A DNA stretch of 59,432 bases from IMG/VR virus record IMGVR_UViG_3300010371_000005, positions 1-59,432 of that record, one strand, 5' to 3'. The position numbers and the translations under genes are program-made. Of the stretch, positions 3,365 through 56,442 are shown one piece after another; position 1 is the first letter of the stretch; every line of letters starts with the position of its first letter. The notes under the pieces were generated by a model. The model had not been told where the DNA came from and did no database searches. It saw only the letters and a program-made list of their open reading frames with translations. The stretch is from a virus.

Positions 3365-4839
3365 CGCCCCGCGAACCCGCTCAGTCCCGTGGACGGCATC
3401 ATGCCCTGCGGCTCGGCGTAGTTTTGGCCGCCGCCGCGGTGCCTGTCCGGCCAGAACGACATCACCACGCTGTCGCCGGCGTCGGGGGAGCGGCCGAGCA
3501 GCTTCACGACCTCGTCCTTCGGGGTGATCTTGATCTTCGGCGGCAGGCCGGAGGCCACGTCCCATTTCGGAGTGGTCAGATCGGAGATCATCAGATCGTC
3601 AGGCGGCAGCGCCACGGTCGGATTGTTCGCGGGATCCAGCAACTCGCGAAGATTGAAATAAGCCGCAGATCGGACATTTGAAAATCCATACTTTCCTGAC
3701 GCGTCCCTGGTGGTCGCCCGCTCCGACCCGACGTACCCGATCGGCCGCGCCCCCGTCTCCCGCAGGCGGTCGTACACGCCGGCACCGACACCGATCGCGT
3801 CCACGATCGCCCGCTCCCCGAAGCCCTGCGCCACCGCGGCCACGCTCATCGTGTCGCGCACCCGGTTCTTGCTCAGGTGCACCACCGGCCCGTCACGATG
3901 GGAGAACACCGTCTCGTCACCACCGCGGCCCACGTCCACCCCCGTCCAGCGCGGCCCGCCCATTCCTGGCCGTCCCGCCCTGTCCCAGACGTGCCACCGC
4001 TCGATGGCCTGCTCCAGCCACGTCAGCGGGATGACCGAGTCTTCATCGCTGGCGTGGAACTCGCCGCGGACGCGGTTCTGGTAGATCGCCGAGTCCTCCC
4101 CCCACTGCTGACGGCGCTGCTCCGCCCATGCACGAGACACCCGGCCGGAGGCGATCGTCTCTTCCAAGTTGATGTGCCTGACCCACCAGTCTTCGTACCC
4201 TGGTGCCCGCCTATGGATGTCGTAGAAACGGCCAGACGGGGGGCCGGGCGTGCTCATGGCGAACGCGTACGCGTTGTCACGCGTGTCGGGACCGGCGTTG
4301 GAGAACGCACCCTCGATGGAGTCCCAGGTCTCCGGCTGGATGATCTTGGCCTCGTCCAGGACGTACAGCAACTCTTCGGCGTGCGCCCCCTCGATGCGCT
4401 CCGGCTGGTTGCTCGCCACCGGCGTGGCCGCCCCGTGCTGCAGCTTGAGTCGCAGGTCCAGCAGCTCGACGTTCGGCTTGAACGCCGGTCGGCCGAGCAT
4501 CTCGAAATCGAGACGGCCGGCCCATTTCTTGATCTCCGGCCAGAGGTACACCTCAAGATGCCGCCAGGCTGAAGCCGTGGTGATCACCTTCCAGTCCTTA
4601 CCAGCCAGTTCACGCGTGGTGGCGAACCACAGGACGATCAGCGAGCCCATGTACGACTTGCCAGCGCCGTGGAGACTGCGTACGCAGACCCGGCGCTTGA
4701 GCGGGACGGCGTCCAAGATCTCGCGCTGATACGGGGCGAGCTTCGTCTTGACGCAATCGTCGGCCCAGTTGGCAGGCGAGTTCCACCAGCGGTCCAGGCG
4801 GCCACGGCTGAGGATCTTGGAAGCGAGGTCGATCTTCAC
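3361..4839 (-). CDS. terL: Terminase large subunit (492 aa)
   Basis: DNA-packaging motor with N-terminal ATPase and C-terminal RNase H-like nuclease. Seen: Walker A-type RSLHGAGKS (about 54-62), Walker B LLYVLDEA (157-164), and the nuclease acidic cluster beginning GVDVGRGGDE (D302) and continuing in VDAIGVGAGVYD and AGDSVVMSFW. Length is usual for the family. It overlaps the upstream 75-aa gene by four bases (ATGA), and the putative small subunit lies just before that. It is separated from the portal operon by the lysis genes and the circle junction, so head genes and terminase are not contiguous. Confidence 0.92.
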   Translation of the reverse strand: MKIDLASKILSRGRLDRWWNSPANWADDCVKTKLAPYQREILDAVPLKRRVCVRSLHGAGKSYMGSLIVLWFATTRELAGKDWKVITTASAWRHLEVYLWPEIKKWAGRLDFEMLGRPAFKPNVELLDLRLKLQHGAATPVASNQPERIEGAHAEELLYVLDEAKIIQPETWDSIEGAFSNAGPDTRDNAYAFAMSTPGPPSGRFYDIHRRAPGYEDWWVRHINLEETIASGRVSRAWAEQRRQQWGEDSAIYQNRVRGEFHASDEDSVIPLTWLEQAIERWHVWDRAGRPGMGGPRWTGVDVGRGGDETVFSHRDGPVVHLSKNRVRDTMSVAAVAQGFGERAIVDAIGVGAGVYDRLRETGARPIGYVGSERATTRDASGKYGFSNVRSAAYFNLRELLDPANNPTVALPPDDLMISDLTTPKWDVASGLPPKIKITPKDEVVKLLGRSPDAGDSVVMSFWPDRHRGGGQNYAEPQGMMPSTGLSGFAGR

Positions 4840-5940: not shown

Positions 5941-6312
5941 CTACTCGATGTCGAACTCGCCGGCCTTCACCCCGGCCACGAACGCCGCCCATTCGTCGCG
6001 GCTGAAAACGGGCGGCAGGTAGTCCGGGTGTTTGCTGTTGCGCACGTAGACCTCCCCGTACATCTCGATCGCCTCGACGCAGTTGTTGCCGCCCGACCCG
6101 TTGCTGAAGCTGGACTTCGTCCAGGTGTTGAGCTTGCTCATCGTCGCACCTTTCCCTTCCATGTACCTCAGGATCAGGTAGCTGCTCACCGAGCAGGCCA
6201 GGAAGGCGCACAGCGCGCCCGGCCAGACGTGCTGCGTCTCGATGGCCAGCGACAGGGCCACACTCAGCGCGGCGGCGATCAGCCCGCAGATCAGCGCCAG
6301 CGCGGCACGCAT
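5941..6312 (-). CDS. Membrane-anchored DUF397 protein (123 aa)
   Basis: Two parts in one open frame. Residues 1-57 hold two hydrophobic segments (about 3-24 and 31-49). Residues 58-123 are a clear DUF397 domain: WTKSSFSNGSGGNNCVEA, then VRNSK and a C-terminal EWAAFVAGVKAGEFD. DUF397 proteins are usually about 60-70 aa, free-standing, found in mycelial actinomycetes and paired with helix-turn-helix regulators. The start at 6312 overlaps the metalloprotease stop (TGATG) and gives the fusion. A second ATG at 6141, with an AAGGTG site upstream, could also release DUF397 alone (66 aa). Both forms may be made. Confidence 0.75.
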   Translation of the reverse strand: MRAALALICGLIAAALSVALSLAIETQHVWPGALCAFLACSVSSYLILRYMEGKGATMSKLNTWTKSSFSNGSGGNNCVEAIEMYGEVYVRNSKHPDYLPPVFSRDEWAAFVAGVKAGEFDIE

Positions 6313-6827
6313 CACACCCGCCTCAGGTGCGCGCGCTGACCGGTGGTCAGGCGCATGGCGTAACGGTTGACGGCCTCGTTCATGACGTTCGCACCGGCCG
6401 AATGCCGCAGGCCGAGCTGATGCCCGATCTCGTGCACGAGCAGCCACGTGCGGTTCTTGCTCTTGCCGTAGTACCGGCCGTAGTCCCTGGCCGCACGCTG
6501 CGTGTCGATCGTGATCGTGGTCTGGCGCGAGCGCCCGATCGGGCCGGACACCTCACCGTCCTGGATCCGGATGCAGCGGTAGGCGGTCGCCGAGCACTTG
6601 CGCGAAACCACCTTCATCCTGCTGCCCACCCGCACGTCCATCCACTTCACGGCTGCGCGCACGTTCCACTTGTCGCCGGGGATCGCGTCCACCACCTCGA
6701 TCACCTTGACGCTCGTCGCGGTGGCGGGAACCCGCGACCAGTCCAGCGATCCAGCACTCGCCGGCCCGGCCGCACCCATCGACAGCAGCACACCCAGCGC
6801 GACGGCCGGCACACCCCAGGCCTTCAC
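6312..6827 (-). CDS. Secreted metzincin-like zinc metalloprotease (171 aa)
   Basis: N-terminal signal peptide (residues 1-25: basic start, hydrophobic core, ASA cleavage site). The catalytic signature HEIGHQLGLRH gives zinc ligands H132, H136 and H142 with general base E133, followed by a Met-turn candidate at M149. This HExxHxxGxxH plus Met pattern defines metzincins of the matrixin type. Two cysteines (79 and 85) could form a disulfide. The protein should act outside the membrane. Starts at GTG overlapping the upstream stop, in an operon with an 85-aa protein and the DUF397 protein. Unusual cargo for a phage; possible targets are host surface proteins or a virion maturation step. Confidence 0.85.
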   Translation of the reverse strand: MKAWGVPAVALGVLLSMGAAGPASAGSLDWSRVPATATSVKVIEVVDAIPGDKWNVRAAVKWMDVRVGSRMKVVSRKCSATAYRCIRIQDGEVSGPIGRSRQTTITIDTQRAARDYGRYYGKSKNRTWLLVHEIGHQLGLRHSAGANVMNEAVNRYAMRLTTGQRAHLRRV

Positions 6828-24077: not shown

Positions 24078-24383
24078 TCAGCCACACGGCTCCACGTTCG
24101 GGGCGGGATGTGCGGCACGCACCAGGTCGGTGTTCGCCCTGGCCGAGATCGCCGCTGACCGCGCTTCGGGCGTGGCGTCTCGCAGCAGGCGCAAGTCTGC
24201 GATCCGTTCGGCGTCAGTGGCGGTCGCGATGGCACTGGTGCGAATGCGCACCTCGGCGTCTCGTTCGGCCAGGCAGTTGACGAGGTCGTACTGGCGGTAT
24301 GCCACGAAGAACGCCACGAGCAGGCTGACCACCGCCATAACCAGGGCGATGTTCCAGAGGTTCGAGGTCTGCCGGGCTGTCAT
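24078..24383 (-). CDS. Membrane-anchored helical protein (101 aa)
   Basis: Start at 24383 by ATGA overlap. One N-terminal transmembrane helix (about residues 10-31), then an alpha-helical, charged extracytoplasmic or cytoplasmic tail (CLAERDAEVRIRTSAIATAT). Last of three small membrane-protein genes after the glycosyltransferases. A lysis accessory or superinfection-exclusion role is possible; nothing specific is shown. Confidence 0.6.
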   Translation of the reverse strand: MTARQTSNLWNIALVMAVVSLLVAFFVAYRQYDLVNCLAERDAEVRIRTSAIATATDAERIADLRLLRDATPEARSAAISARANTDLVRAAHPAPNVEPCG

Positions 24384-24499
24384 CGTGATCGCCTTTCGTG
24401 CCGCCGGATGTCCATGTTCTGTACCCCGCGGCGCAGCACGAGGCCGATCGCCCCGCACGCAGTGAGGCTTGCCAGCAACTGCAGTAGGAAACTCATCAT
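24380..24499 (-). CDS. Micro-membrane protein (39 aa)
   Basis: MMSFLLQLLASLTACGAIGL then a basic end (RRHERRSR). One hydrophobic helix. The ATG overlaps the upstream stop and its stop overlaps the next ATG (ATGA both ends), strong support for a real gene of this size. Confidence 0.6.
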   Translation of the reverse strand: MMSFLLQLLASLTACGAIGLVLRRGVQNMDIRRHERRSR

Positions 24500-24717
24500 C
24501 GTGCCCGTCGCTCCGGTTCGTCGGCCGGCTCGTCCTCGTTCTCGTCCCGTGCGCGGCCGATCCTAATCGGGGGCGCGAGAGCGATCACGAGAGCAGCCGG
24601 GATGCCGAGCACGGCGGCATCAGGAGTGGCGCCCCTCCACAGCATCACCACCACCGTCAGTAACCACGCCCCTAGTCCAGTGATCATGACCAATGCCTTG
24701 AGCCATCCTGGCACCAT
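24496..24717 (-). CDS. Two-helix membrane protein, holin-like (73 aa)
   Basis: Start at 24717, where GAGGGGGG lies just upstream. Two transmembrane helices (about 5-26 and 33-50) and an acidic, Arg-rich tail (ENEDEPADEPERRAR). Size and topology fit a class II holin or antiholin, separate from the 42-380 gene. It heads the three-gene membrane cassette. Confidence 0.6.
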   Translation of the reverse strand: MVPGWLKALVMITGLGAWLLTVVVMLWRGATPDAAVLGIPAALVIALAPPIRIGRARDENEDEPADEPERRAR

Positions 24718-24752
24718 CGCCCCCCTCGTGAGTGATGACAGTGCACATGACA

Positions 24753-25487
24753 TTAGCCTTTACCTGCCTGTATAGGTGAATCCCTCCGTCTGGCCGAGGG
24801 GCCGGACCGTGACGCTCTGCGCCGGGCTAGCATCGTGTCCGTTATGACCGGTCCGCTCCAGTCGATGGACATCGCGGACTCTGCGTGATGGCGGCGTGCG
24901 TACCGATCGTGAGCACGGTGTTTCGTGAGTGAGGGCACCTGTCGATGGTCCACCAGGCTCGGCCAGGTGTACCAGACATCGACCCCGTTCTTCTCCGCCC
25001 ACCCGGCTACCCGCATGTCATCGGGTACCCCCGCGCGGGTGTCCGCATGCCGGATCATGTCGGATATCAGCAGGGTCGGAATAGCGATGCTTACACCCCA
25101 CATCAGCTTCGATGTCCGAATCCATGCGGCACCATGGGCGTCCGCGGTGGCTGCCAGAGTCGCCCAGCGGGTCGGCACGGTCCGCCCGTTACCGAGGTAA
25201 GGCGACACCACGGCGGGGCCGGGAACGTGCCGTAGTGCCTCACTCATGCCCGCGGCGAAGTCCCGGCAGAGCACCGCGTCGTCCTGCAGCAGCACATGCC
25301 AGTCCGCGTCCGGCTCGTGCATCAGCCACGCCGCGCGCGCGTTGCGCCACACCCGGTCGGCGTTCCCCGATGCCGGTCCCTCGCGGTCCCAGGAAACCCG
25401 GACCGCCGAAGCGTCAAAACTCTCGATGATCTGATCGACATGATCCGCCCGGTCCGGATGCGCCATGATCGAGTAGCTGACCTTCAC
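24753..25487 (-). CDS. Glycosyltransferase, GT-A-like (244 aa)
   Basis: MKVSYSIMAHPDRADHVDQI opening, then HVLLQDDAVLCRDF, the metal-binding DxD-type site of a small GT-A enzyme, and WYTWPSLVDHRQVPSLT near the end. It would transfer a sugar to a virion or host substrate. The ATG overlaps the stop of the large fusion enzyme upstream (ATGA). The last ~35 residues are a basic disordered tail. Confidence 0.75.
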   Translation of the reverse strand: MKVSYSIMAHPDRADHVDQIIESFDASAVRVSWDREGPASGNADRVWRNARAAWLMHEPDADWHVLLQDDAVLCRDFAAGMSEALRHVPGPAVVSPYLGNGRTVPTRWATLAATADAHGAAWIRTSKLMWGVSIAIPTLLISDMIRHADTRAGVPDDMRVAGWAEKNGVDVWYTWPSLVDHRQVPSLTKHRAHDRYARRHHAESAMSIDWSGPVITDTMLARRRASRSGPSARRRDSPIQAGKG

Positions 25488-52281: not shown

Positions 52282-53100
52282 CTATTCCTTCGGATCCGCC
52301 TTGAAAGCCACACGCGCGAAGAGGTCATCCTCGGTCGGCAGCGAGCCCCAGCGGTGCTCGCCCACACCATGCTTCACCAGCGCTCGCAGTGTCCCGCTGA
52401 CCCCCTTTGGGGTGGCGTAGGTGACGGATACCGGCCCAACGTTCGTGCTCTCCACGCGAACCGCGAACCAGCCCTGCTCCTGCTCGGAGTACGGCTGCAT
52501 CGGTCGCGTCCCGCCCTGGCTCGCGTCCCGGCTGACCAGGATGCCCAGCTCACGCAGTCGGTTGATCAATCGCTGCCGTCCGCCGCCGAGCGCCTGCGCC
52601 AGCGCACCGAGATCGCAGAGCCCGGTCGAATCCATGTACGTACGCCACTCGGCCTCGATCGGGCGCAGTTCCTCGATCCGAGTCTCCGCCTCGATGGCGC
52701 GCTTCGAGGCGGAATCCTTCTCGCGGAGCGCGGCAGCGTAGCGCTCCAGCGCGGTCGGCAGGTCCATCTGCCCGAGGTACATCCCGGTCTTCCGGATCTC
52801 CGGAAGGATCTCCGTGGTGACCTTGCGTTTGAACTCCTTGGCCGCCTCCTTGCGTGAGGCGAAGATCAGATCGTAGAGCCCGGACTCGTTGACGATCGTC
52901 ATATCCTGCTGTCCACCAAATTCGGACATAAGGATGTTGGTACTACCAACATCGCGCTGGTCAAGGCGCTTAACCGCCGTCTGAGGCTGTGCTATCTCAA
53001 TGACGGCACACACGTCGCGGAGAGCGAACCAGGGCTCGCCTTCGATCATCACGACCCGAACGGGCTTATCCTGGAACTCAAAGAGCTGGAGGTCTGTCAT
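52282..53100 (-). CDS. BRO-N / KilA-C antirepressor (272 aa)
   Basis: BRO-N domain (FEFQDKPVRVVMIEGEPWFA, FALRDVC, ending TEILPEIRKTGMYLG) in residues 1-110. A coiled helix follows (EKDSASKRAIEAETRIEELR), then a KilA-C (ANT) domain (DLGALAQALGGGRQRLINRL; LRELGILVSRD; GLVKHG-type end). This is the classic antirepressor architecture. The start at 53100 is set by a TAAGCT box 7 bases upstream (leaderless). The promoter lies within a large palindrome, so it is probably autoregulated. Inserted between MuF and protease genes. Confidence 0.85.
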   Translation of the reverse strand: MTDLQLFEFQDKPVRVVMIEGEPWFALRDVCAVIEIAQPQTAVKRLDQRDVGSTNILMSEFGGQQDMTIVNESGLYDLIFASRKEAAKEFKRKVTTEILPEIRKTGMYLGQMDLPTALERYAAALREKDSASKRAIEAETRIEELRPIEAEWRTYMDSTGLCDLGALAQALGGGRQRLINRLRELGILVSRDASQGGTRPMQPYSEQEQGWFAVRVESTNVGPVSVTYATPKGVSGTLRALVKHGVGEHRWGSLPTEDDLFARVAFKADPKE

Positions 53101-53107
53101 ACCCTGC

Positions 53108-53156
53108 AGCTTACCGGAGTCGATATCTGCTATCGATAGTGGGTATCGACTCCGGT
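53108..53156 (-). promoter_or_regulatory. Nested palindromic operator and promoter of the BRO gene
   Basis: Perfect 13-bp arms ACCGGAGTCGATA (53113-53125) and TATCGACTCCGGT (53144-53156) around a central palindrome CTATCGATAG. The -10 TAAGCT (53113-53108) touches the left arm, and the right arm touches the MuF stop codon. Could also act as a terminator for MuF. Confidence 0.75.
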
Positions 53157-53974
53157 CACCGCCGGAACTGCCGGTTGCTGAGATCCACACTCTCGCCGCG
53201 ACCGACCAGGAGGTTCGTGCACCGGCACTGGATTACCTCCTGCGGCGGACCGGCCGGGTCGCCAGGGAACATGAGCGAGAACCCGCCCACGATGAACGGC
53301 TCACCCATCGGGACCCGCTGCTGATCGGCCAGCCGATGACTCGGCCTCGTGCGCGCATCCGCAGTACTCAACCAGACGCGCTCCAGCTGCTCGCCGGTTT
53401 CCTCCGCCAACGCCTCAAACACGTCGTGGCGGCCGGCGTTCAGCGCGCCGATCGCCTCACTGCGCGCCACCACGACCGCCCGATTCTGCCAGCGCGGCGT
53501 GGCGGTCGCCGAGAGCTGCTCGTCCACCCTGGCCGCCAGCTTCGGTATCGACTCCCCGAGGTTCACGCCCTGCGCCACCTGGCCGGCGATCAGGTCGTAC
53601 ACCTCGTCCGGCGTGCGAACCATGCGGTTGCGGACCTCGGCGAGATAGCGCGTGACGAAGATCCGCTGATCCCACGGATAGTCGTCCCCGAAGATCGCGG
53701 CGTACCCACGGCGCATGGCCGGTTCGATCGAACGCTCGATCACCAGGTCCACGGCTTCACGCCAGGACGGCTGCAGCGCCCAGATCGCATCCATGTCGGG
53801 CATGCGCCCCTCGCCGCGCAGCACGCGCCGGGACAGCCGCACCAGCCAGTCCGACAGCGCCGCCCAGAACGTGTCACGAATGTCACGCTCGGTGGCCAGC
53901 ACGTCCAGGCGCCGATCGAGACGCTGCGGCAGCCACGGATCGCGCCCCCGCCCGTTCCACACCGGCTCGGTCAC
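53156..53974 (-). CDS. MuF-like head morphogenesis protein (272 aa)
   Basis: The C-terminal MuF signature is clear: RVWLSTADARTRPSHRLADQ, then QRVPMGEPFIVGG, FPGDPAGPPQEVIQCRC. The helical N-terminal two thirds would bind the portal. GTG start overlaps the stop of the micro-membrane gene before it (GTGA). Confidence 0.88.
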   Translation of the reverse strand: MTEPVWNGRGRDPWLPQRLDRRLDVLATERDIRDTFWAALSDWLVRLSRRVLRGEGRMPDMDAIWALQPSWREAVDLVIERSIEPAMRRGYAAIFGDDYPWDQRIFVTRYLAEVRNRMVRTPDEVYDLIAGQVAQGVNLGESIPKLAARVDEQLSATATPRWQNRAVVVARSEAIGALNAGRHDVFEALAEETGEQLERVWLSTADARTRPSHRLADQQRVPMGEPFIVGGFSLMFPGDPAGPPQEVIQCRCTNLLVGRGESVDLSNRQFRR

Positions 53975-54066
53975 GGCATCTCCCCGGTCGCGAGGTAGAG
54001 CCCGGCGGCGATGCCGAGCACGATCAGGCCCAGCACCAGGATCGCCAGCTCCCCGTTCTCGTTCAC
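53971..54066 (-). CDS. Micro-membrane protein 3 (31 aa)
   Basis: MNENGELAILVLGLIVLGIA then GLYLATGEMP: acidic start, one transmembrane helix. GTG start overlaps the previous stop; its stop overlaps the MuF start. Last of three consecutive tiny membrane genes between portal and MuF. Confidence 0.65.
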   Translation of the reverse strand: MNENGELAILVLGLIVLGIAAGLYLATGEMP

Positions 54067-54152
54067 GAGCCCACCGCCATCGTCAGCGCCACACTCAGCG
54101 CGGTCCACGCCGCCGCGTACGCGCCGACCCACGCCGCCACAGCGCGCGTCAC
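54063..54152 (-). CDS. Micro-membrane protein 2 (29 aa)
   Basis: MTRAVAAWVGAYAAAWTALS then VALTMAVGS: nearly all hydrophobic, one transmembrane helix. GTGA overlaps at both ends. Confidence 0.6.
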   Translation of the reverse strand: MTRAVAAWVGAYAAAWTALSVALTMAVGS

Positions 54153-54229
54153 GTGAACACCACGTACGCCACGCACGCCAGCAGCCATGCCGCACCGGCC
54201 AGGTAGGCCGCCACCCAGTGATCGGTCAT
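54149..54229 (-). CDS. Micro-membrane protein 1 (26 aa)
   Basis: MTDHWVAAYLAGAAWLLACV then AYVVFT: one transmembrane helix. ATG overlaps the portal stop (ATGA); stop overlaps the next GTG. Below the size most gene callers use. Confidence 0.6.
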   Translation of the reverse strand: MTDHWVAAYLAGAAWLLACVAYVVFT

Positions 54230-56112
54230 GCCGTCACCAGGCCCCGGCCGCGATTGGCGATCTCCAAAGCGGCGAACAGCAGGTCATCGTGGTGGCGCAT
54301 GCCGCGGGTCAGCAGCTCGGTGACGTACCCCGAGAGCAGTTGCTCCAGCCGATCGGCCGGCACGCCGAAGTCCGCGGCGGTCGCCTCGATGTGCGCCCAC
54401 GATCCGCGGGTCACCGTCTCCGCCCTGGCCGGGCTGATCGGGCCGATCTGCGCGTGCAGTTCGTGACGCGGGATGTCATGCCACTTGCCCGCACGCTCGG
54501 CGGGGGTGGCCAGGCGCCCGCCGGCCAGCTCCAGCGCCCGTAGCACGTGCAGGCGGCACGAGGTGTTGAACACGATCTGTGGGGCGGGTGGTGCGGCCTG
54601 CAGCTCGGCGATCCGGCGATCGAGCATCGAGGCGGTCAGTGCGGGCTGCTCCGGTGGGGAGTCGAGCACCTGTTCGCCGGGATCGTCCTGAGCGTCACCG
54701 CCGGTGTTCTGATCCGCGGTCGGCGGGAGCCCGGCGCGCTCGATCGTGGGCAACCCCAGCGCGGTCTGGATAGCGGGATCCAGGATCAGGTCGGGCTGCG
54801 TCTGGATCAGCTTGAGCAGGATCTGCTGAGCACGCTCGGTGACCGAGGGCATCTGCTCGGGATCGAACGCCGCAGCCTTGACCATCTCTTCGTCCGAGAT
54901 CAGGAACCGATCGTGCAGCTGCGCGGCCTCTTCGATGCGGTTGGGACGGGCGGCCAGGGTGGACGTGTCGAAGGCAAACGCGTATTTGCCGATGTCGGCT
55001 TCGCGGCCCATCGCGGCCAGGGCGAGGTTCAGGAAACCCCGGGTCAGGGCATCGGCGATCAGCGACAGGTAGCCGCCGATCCAGCGGGTGCCCTCCTCGG
55101 AGATCAGCCACGCCGTCCAGTGGTTCGCGTTGCCGATGCCGGTCAGTACCTCCTGGGGGATCTCAGCACTGGCCGCGACCCGGGCGATGGCGTCCTTGCG
55201 CATGTCGCCGATCTCGGCACTGAGTTCGGACCAGAACGTGATCGGGCGGATCTTGTCCACGTTGTCCATGAGGTGGTCCGGGACGGTGAACATGATCGGG
55301 ACCATCGCGCTCGCCGTGCTCTGATCGACCATCGAGGCGGCCATGGTGCGCTGCAGGTACGCCATGAAACCGGCGACCCCGGGCGGGTCCTCCTCCTTGC
55401 GAGGGAAGTCGATCGACTCGGGGACCGCCATCATGCCGGCGCCGGTCAGCCGCGAGTCCAGCTCGGCGAACTCCCGCTTGGTCAGCAGCTCGATCTCCCG
55501 CAGCACGGGGATGGTAGAGCGCGCGAACGAGTCGGGCTGGTCGGGGTCGTTCGGGTGCGCCCGGTGACAGCGGATCAGCACGTCCACCTTGTCGGTGAGC
55601 TCCAGCCATCCGTCCCCGCGGTGCTTCGGGCGGCGCACCTTGACGCGACCGCCCTCGTTCTTGATCGCCGCTCCAGTGACCACGAACCACGAACCAGATG
55701 CCTCGTGCGCCCGCTGAGCGGCTCCCTCACCGACGAAATAGGCCTCCCCGGGGGTCGCTAGGTCAATACCCGCCAAACGGAGGTTCTCGTCTCTCTGAGC
55801 GCCTTTTCCGAGTGGGACAGCGGCCAGGAGACGAACCGCCTCGTCCGTGGTCTCCCCCGCCCCCTCGCCCGTCTCGTCCACCTCGGTCACGTACAGACGC
55901 GCTTTGGACACCGACTCGCCGATACGCCCGGCCAGGAAGTGCAGCTCCGGCACGATGTCGTAGAGCCGCCAGGCCTCGACCTGCCAGTCCTGGTTGCCGA
56001 ACTTGTACGTCTTCCAGCTGGAACCCACCGACAGATCGACCATCGCGGTCGCCGCCGTCAGCGCCGTACGGCTCAGATCCCCGGTCACGGCCTTCGGCCG
56101 GCGAAGCGCCAC
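54226..56112 (-). CDS. Portal protein (628 aa)
   Basis: Long alpha/beta protein with the phage portal layout: N-terminal GSSWKTYKFGNQDWQVEAWR, wing/clip region with VFTVPDHLM-type and SAEIPQEVLTGIGNANHWTA (the conserved helix before the stem), TRGFLNLALAAMGREADI, and a C-terminal barrel-like tail. It forms the dodecameric DNA gate. Followed without a gap by three micro-membrane genes and MuF. Confidence 0.9.
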   Translation of the reverse strand: MALRRPKAVTGDLSRTALTAATAMVDLSVGSSWKTYKFGNQDWQVEAWRLYDIVPELHFLAGRIGESVSKARLYVTEVDETGEGAGETTDEAVRLLAAVPLGKGAQRDENLRLAGIDLATPGEAYFVGEGAAQRAHEASGSWFVVTGAAIKNEGGRVKVRRPKHRGDGWLELTDKVDVLIRCHRAHPNDPDQPDSFARSTIPVLREIELLTKREFAELDSRLTGAGMMAVPESIDFPRKEEDPPGVAGFMAYLQRTMAASMVDQSTASAMVPIMFTVPDHLMDNVDKIRPITFWSELSAEIGDMRKDAIARVAASAEIPQEVLTGIGNANHWTAWLISEEGTRWIGGYLSLIADALTRGFLNLALAAMGREADIGKYAFAFDTSTLAARPNRIEEAAQLHDRFLISDEEMVKAAAFDPEQMPSVTERAQQILLKLIQTQPDLILDPAIQTALGLPTIERAGLPPTADQNTGGDAQDDPGEQVLDSPPEQPALTASMLDRRIAELQAAPPAPQIVFNTSCRLHVLRALELAGGRLATPAERAGKWHDIPRHELHAQIGPISPARAETVTRGSWAHIEATAADFGVPADRLEQLLSGYVTELLTRGMRHHDDLLFAALEIANRGRGLVTA

Positions 56113-56115
56113 GTG

Positions 56116-56442
56116 CTACCTCCCGAGGTTGTGAATCATGCCGGCGATCTGACTGAACGCCCCGACCAGCCCCAATCCAATCATGACAGGCTCGTCACCC
56201 CACAGAATGATAAGCGGAGCCATGGCTCCGCTTATCCAAATACTTGAGCACCAAACGCAGCTGACCAGGGCAGCAACGAAATTCCCGACCGTCCCAGGCC
56301 GGTCATCAAGCCATCCGATCAGCCCATCGCGCACCGGCTCGGTGATCACGTCCTGCACGACCAGCCCCGTCACCCGGGCCACCGCAAGGGCGTAGACCAC
56401 GAGCAGGACTGCGGGCGGCACCTCGGCCAGGGATTCGATCAC
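56116..56442 (-). CDS. DUF1360-like membrane protein (108 aa)
   Basis: Helices at about 8-30, 54-72 and 77-100; ALAVARVTGLVVQDVITEPV then GLIGWLDDRP and CVWCSSIWISG match the DUF1360 pattern of small membrane proteins in actinobacteria and their phages. First gene of the portal operon; GTG 6 bases after TAGGAT (leaderless). Confidence 0.75.
   Translation of the reverse strand: MIESLAEVPPAVLLVVYALAVARVTGLVVQDVITEPVRDGLIGWLDDRPGTVGNFVAALVSCVWCSSIWISGAMAPLIILWGDEPVMIGLGLVGAFSQIAGMIHNLGR

Follow-up and report, generated by a model that had tools for sequence, protein, structure and literature searches.

Gene arrangement between portal and MuF

The 59,432-base viral contig analysed here, referred to as the window, comes from an actinobacterial phage and carries on its minus strand the gene order DUF1360, portal, three micro-ORFs and MuF. 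The DUF1360 protein (56116..56442 (-)), hydrophobic by eye, is encoded directly upstream of the portal protein (54226..56112 (-); 628 aa; phrog_776, E 1.2e-139), and the micro-ORFs are followed by the gene of the MuF head morphogenesis protein (53156..53974 (-); 272 aa; PF04233; phrog_2468). ORF1 (54149..54229 (-); 26 aa; MTDHWVAAYLAGAAWLLACVAYVVFT), ORF2 (54063..54152 (-); 29 aa, GTG start; MTRAVAAWVGAYAAAWTALSVALTMAVGS) and ORF3 (53971..54066 (-); 31 aa, GTG start, with a GxxxG motif; MNENGELAILVLGLIVLGIAAGLYLATGEMP) each encode a putative single-transmembrane micro-protein and belong to families F1, F2 and F3, respectively. They link the portal stop to the MuF start, exactly as an earlier note on this DNA had claimed, through four 4-nt (-4) RTGA overlaps that leave zero intergenic space: an ATGA joint between portal and ORF1 (54226..54229 (-)), and GTGA joints between ORF1 and ORF2 (54149..54152 (-)), between ORF2 and ORF3 (54063..54066 (-)) and between ORF3 and MuF (53971..53974 (-)). 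All four joints thus have the -4 or -1 stop/start overlap that characterizes a termination-reinitiation chain. The upstream gene of such pairs commonly, if not universally, contains a Shine-Dalgarno (SD)-like motif, which is present here at positions -9 to -6 of all four joints: a GGTG encoded by the portal C-terminus and serving ORF1 (54235..54238 (-)), a GGTG within ORF1 serving ORF2 (54158..54161 (-)), a GGTG within ORF2 serving ORF3 (54072..54075 (-)) and a GGAG within ORF3 serving MuF (53980..53983 (-)).

The single hydrophobic segment that had been reported for each ORF is confirmed by hydropathy, which was the sole basis for judging membrane insertion; the best 17-residue Kyte-Doolittle means (KD17) are 2.06 for ORF1, 1.54 for ORF2 and 2.88 for ORF3. 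The three peptides have no Pfam or PHROG match up to E 0.1, in searches with profiles that handle such short peptides poorly. A 28-nt match of ORF2 to positions 6245–6272 of the window was taken as convergence of an alanine-rich segment, the target being a hydrophobic stretch of a DUF397 protein; the ORF at 5941-6447 (-) combines hydrophobic segments with a DUF397 domain. A 171-aa ORF at 6312-6827 (-), with a signal-peptide-like start and the zinc-metalloprotease motif HEIGHQLGLRH, is unusual phage cargo. A polymorphic-toxin reading of MuF was dropped, as the protein stops soon after its domain (residues 129–253 of 272).

Chance, reading frames and selection

In random open 29-aa segments with matching dinucleotide composition the mean KD17 is 0.39, and 4.5% of them reach at least 1.5. 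A strict -4 chain that spans all 251 nt of the gap is found in 0.75% of dinucleotide-type shuffles, and one in which every ORF also has a KD17 of at least 1.5 arose in none of 300,000; chance is an unlikely source of chain and hydrophobicity combined. The portal–MuF chain is also the sole RTGA chain of three small hydrophobic ORFs in the window when both strands are scanned. The earlier note had argued for translation from the perfect chaining. By itself the chaining is weak evidence, because 0.75% of shuffles give it, and the case for translation is carried instead by comparative data: conserved frames, recurring families, SD-like motifs and RTGA coupling. On these grounds the three ORFs are very probably translated genes.

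All three ORFs are retained in the close relatives L004, L005 and L007 (MuF identity 92, 85 and 80%, respectively), which show none of the frame-disrupting changes that had been proposed as a refutation; the only indels are of 9, 6 and 3 nt. The predicted bias toward synonymous substitution is present, although for these three ORFs it is weak. Between the window and L004, a mutation-matched null predicts 40.6 nonsynonymous changes and 33 were counted (p 0.0125), and two disjoint pairs gave a nonsynonymous deficit with p 0.053. All single-transmembrane micro-genes pooled fall below the mutation-matched null with z -3.7, and pooled non-membrane cassettes with z -5.5. Several pairs, though not all, keep hydrophobicity above random expectation (p 0.02–0.05). 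Purifying selection on the window's ORFs is marginal (p about 0.01–0.05), so that they may be fast-evolving or partly degenerate.

A hypervariable site in the phiAsp2-like clade

MuF scans of viral contigs yielded about a hundred distinct relatives whose gene context could be read, and a phiAsp2-like clade (MuF identity about 56% or more) comprises 62 contigs; a scan of genome contigs returned 12 distant relatives only, with no close prophage or host link. Within the clade the portal–MuF gap is empty in 15 contigs and occupied in 47, with one insert in 22, two in 7, three in 11, four in 5, five in 1 and nine in 1. The 103 cassettes found have a median length of 49 aa; 30 are of 32 aa or less, and 47 contain a hydrophobic segment. 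The earlier note had considered membrane proteins unexpected among capsid genes, an expectation that the clade contradicts: a hydrophobic-by-eye DUF1360 protein is encoded directly upstream of portal in most members, and at least one hydrophobic mini-protein is found in 31 of the 47 occupied islands. In more distant lineages portal is mostly joined straight to MuF by a short overlap.

The junctions are as uniform as the cargo is diverse, 152 of 165 being exactly -4. The path-finder used favours -4 junctions and was hence rerun on shuffled gaps as a control: fully -4-chained islands number 38 of 45 in the real data against 10.7 expected. A reading in which the open frames and the RTGA spacing are fortuitous in GC-rich DNA is scarcely credible beside these values; the chain alone does occur in shuffles at the frequency given above, whereas conserved frames and families, SD-like motifs and the excess of chained islands all speak against a non-coding origin. 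Judged by sequence comparison, the window's three ORFs are one instance of a much wider phenomenon, a hypervariable, putatively coupled gene-cassette site.

No description of the portal–MuF island was found in the open-access literature, the only literature covered. One-insert cases are already known: in the nearest named phage, Actinoplanes phage phiAsp2 (AY576796), portal Pas4, the hydrophobic 28-aa Pas5 and MuF Pas6 are encoded in the same order as in the window, with two 4-nt overlaps labelled 'putative translational coupling'. The phiAsp2 site differs from that of the window in its single insert, which clusters with family F4 and not with F1–F3, and its record does not mention variability. 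Of the 48 same-strand pairs annotated in the first 49 kb of phiAsp2, 9 have -4 overlaps, and the portal–MuF site accounts for two of these.

Inserts are also accepted at the MuF–protease and DUF1360–portal junctions, less often than between portal and MuF. The gap between MuF and the protease region measures 984 nt in the window, 31 nt in L004 and 948 nt in L005, differences that mark it as a second insertion site. In the window this gap holds a Bro-N/KilAC antirepressor gene (52282-53109 (-)), and a TATCGACTCCGG repeat lies near 53120-53155.

Assignment to cassette families relied on composition-shuffled alignment scores and in part on visual judgement, and as the peptides are short and hydrophobic these homology calls are uncertain. 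Recurring families comprise F1, F2, F3, F4, the zinc-finger-like CxxCxGxG proteins (with a weak DnaJ_CXXCXGXG match, below the Pfam cut-off), YLQ, WFTE, RPYD and others. Besides ORF1, F1 has members in L004, L005, L007, L036, L085, L097 and L115; F2 is found in 12 islands, and F3 is confined to the window's own subclade. Searches with closer F1 and F2 subsets matched only contigs that had been assigned to the portal–MuF site before, and among the 20 records searched no genome has more than one copy of F2. Mini-gene families reappear on separate, distant branches, and the minimum number of changes on a portal+MuF tree is 5 for F1, at least 6 for F2, 8 for YLQ and 24 for insert number, so the cargo turns over faster than its neighbours. 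Families that share islands keep the same relative order in 19 of 20 cases (permutation p 0.003, with families and islands labelled by hand), which suggests that cassettes are lost from, and exchanged within, ordered arrays and not inserted wholly at random.

Some islands carry larger or composite cargo. In L039 (3546-5004) a run of nine CxxCxGxG zinc-finger-like paralogues (48-65 aa) is joined by -4/-1 overlaps, an apparent tandem expansion of one cassette. A 194-aa protein encoded in the L019 island (4029-4613) has an L10-like N-terminus and an L7/L12 C-terminal domain (Pfam E 1.8e-7 and 4.9e-25, respectively); ribosomal proteins of phages, including bL12, have been reported (PMC6375957). 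A 438-aa protein encoded between portal and MuF in L035 (3565-4881) has a signal-peptide-like N-terminus and looks secreted, with no Pfam or PHROG match. A 59-aa cassette in L042 (4538-4717) resembles a fusion of an F1-type N-terminus with an F2-type C-terminus and is perhaps a recombination product. The L097 island carries as a cassette DUF397, the domain also seen at 5941-6447 (-) of the window.

Changes in cargo coincide with the joints. The flanks of the sister pair L038/L111, ending at the portal RTGA on one side and starting at the MuF RTGA on the other, are about 93% identical, and the cargo between them differs. L005 carries one cassette more than L004, at the ATGA before MuF, and L104 lacks the F1 present in L085, with the difference confined precisely to the stretch between two similar joints. 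Duplication of the target site upon cassette insertion was rejected on average: joints flanking a cassette agree in 6.9 of 18 columns, against 7.7 for joints of other islands. The flanking joints being no more alike than others, neither general target-site duplication nor a specific insertion mechanism is supported, one 18-bp flanking repeat in L115 being the sole exception. Upstream of the RTGA joints the consensus has G at -9 (91%), -8 (70%) and -6 (72%), giving a GGTG that would pair with the 16S end in the manner of an SD sequence. It usually lies 6–9 nt before the junction, and an SD-like motif is found at -12 to -5 in 68% of joints and in 13% of control positions.

Proposed role of the cassettes

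The portal–MuF gap might be occupied for reasons other than the peptides themselves. If they were irrelevant, the short coupled ORFs would act as attenuators setting the portal-to-MuF ratio, in keeping with the RTGA coupling of every ORF and the weak selection on those of the window. We nevertheless consider this translational tuning unlikely: the same peptide families are kept on different branches, unrelated soluble proteins, zinc-finger-like arrays and an L10/L12-like protein are among the cargo, each joint retains its own SD-like motif, and the number of inserts ranges from 0 to 9, whereas the portal/MuF requirement should be constant. A structural role, in which the peptides tether a portal/MuF nucleus to the membrane or become part of the procapsid, would agree with their position between two head genes to which they are coupled, with the restriction of F1 and F2 matches to this site and with the enrichment of -4 pairs for subunits of complexes (PMC10666635). 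Even so, the peptides cannot be generally required, as 15 of the 62 relatives have no insert and others have non-membrane cargo only. With sites left empty in nature, an essential structural role is unlikely, and we regard the structural reading as a whole as very improbable.

Single hydrophobic segments in a late structural operon would also fit holin- or antiholin-type peptides. The transmembrane segment expected of a holin is there by hydropathy (KD17 1.54 to 2.88), but the neighbours are DUF1360, portal, MuF and the antirepressor, with no linked endolysin, no match to a known holin family was obtained in Pfam or PHROG up to E 0.1, and no lysis gene was recognised by profile search. The island is, in addition, often empty. 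A better candidate lysis module is a separate chain of three small ORFs with 4-nt overlaps (24078-24753 (-)), located after a glucosyltransferase-like gene; the first two are clearly hydrophobic, none has a family match, and the first is 95% identical in L004 and L005. It is a possible lysis module, and a lysis function for the portal–MuF peptides is distinctly unlikely.

We consider it probable that the three ORFs are real, translated micro-genes for accessory membrane proteins, dispensable to the phage, in a hypervariable, translationally coupled portal–MuF cassette site. Ribosomes ending the portal gene would reinitiate at the ATGA, and termination-reinitiation would carry them through each mini-gene on to MuF, aided by the SD-like GGTG or GGAG at the end of each upstream gene. 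Recombination at the joints could add, remove or swap whole mini-genes and leave the coupling to MuF intact, because every joint shares the layout GGTG, five bases, RTGA. The cargo would be dispensable for head assembly. The three hydrophobic peptides would insert in the host membrane late in infection as accessory factors, with membrane or host modulation, superinfection exclusion or lysis tuning as candidate roles; a late membrane effector is their likeliest function. The frames, the joints, the hypervariability, the recurring families and the clean breakpoints can be read directly from the sequences; translation, coupling, the mechanism of recombination, dispensability and, above all, the membrane function are what we infer.

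The closest concepts to the island are morons and hypervariable phage loci, in which non-essential accessory genes are gained and lost between structural genes. The island shares with them the presence and absence of genes between conserved neighbours (0 to 9 inserts in 62 relatives), and its natural empty sites suggest dispensability for lytic growth. Classical morons have their own promoter and terminator, whereas the island genes, fused into the operon by 4-nt stop/start overlaps with zero intergenic space, show no sign of autonomous expression. T4-type mobile regulatory cassettes (PeSL) likewise contain small ORFs shuffled at repeated expression signals, but their joints are promoter/stem-loop elements and not translational stop/start overlaps. 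The Start-Associated Sequences of Cluster K mycobacteriophages, 13-bp elements 3-7 bp before starts in the non-structural half of the genome (PMC3203893), resemble the island joints as a sequence repeated at the ribosome-binding position before many genes of different families; the island differs in having merely a degenerate SD-like motif and RTGA, and in lying in the head operon. Coupling at -4 overlaps has been established experimentally in E. coli and Haloferax (PMC6728339, PMC10666635), and the island shares the overlap, and presumably the coupling, with those termination-reinitiation pairs, which are usually fixed functional pairs and not a swappable series.

A further, more speculative proposal, less likely than not, is that the site is an integrase-free cassette platform whose combined joint (SD-like GGTG, five bases, RTGACC) binds ribosomes, couples stop to start and is the place of recombination, all at once. 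If so, this essential operon could take up tiny genes in series and swap them without a seam, and the phages would be supplied, alongside head-gene expression, with membrane and zinc-finger-like micro-effectors that evolve quickly. The island reveals accessory micro-genes hidden in the most conserved operon of a phage, mostly too small for annotation to pick up as a rule. It also points to a simple principle, an RTGA joint plus an SD-like motif, that would let such an essential operon take changing cargo. Further micro-genes may be findable via RTGA chains between homologous structural genes, and the empty, one-insert and several-insert sites offer a natural panel for testing the role of tiny membrane proteins in phages.
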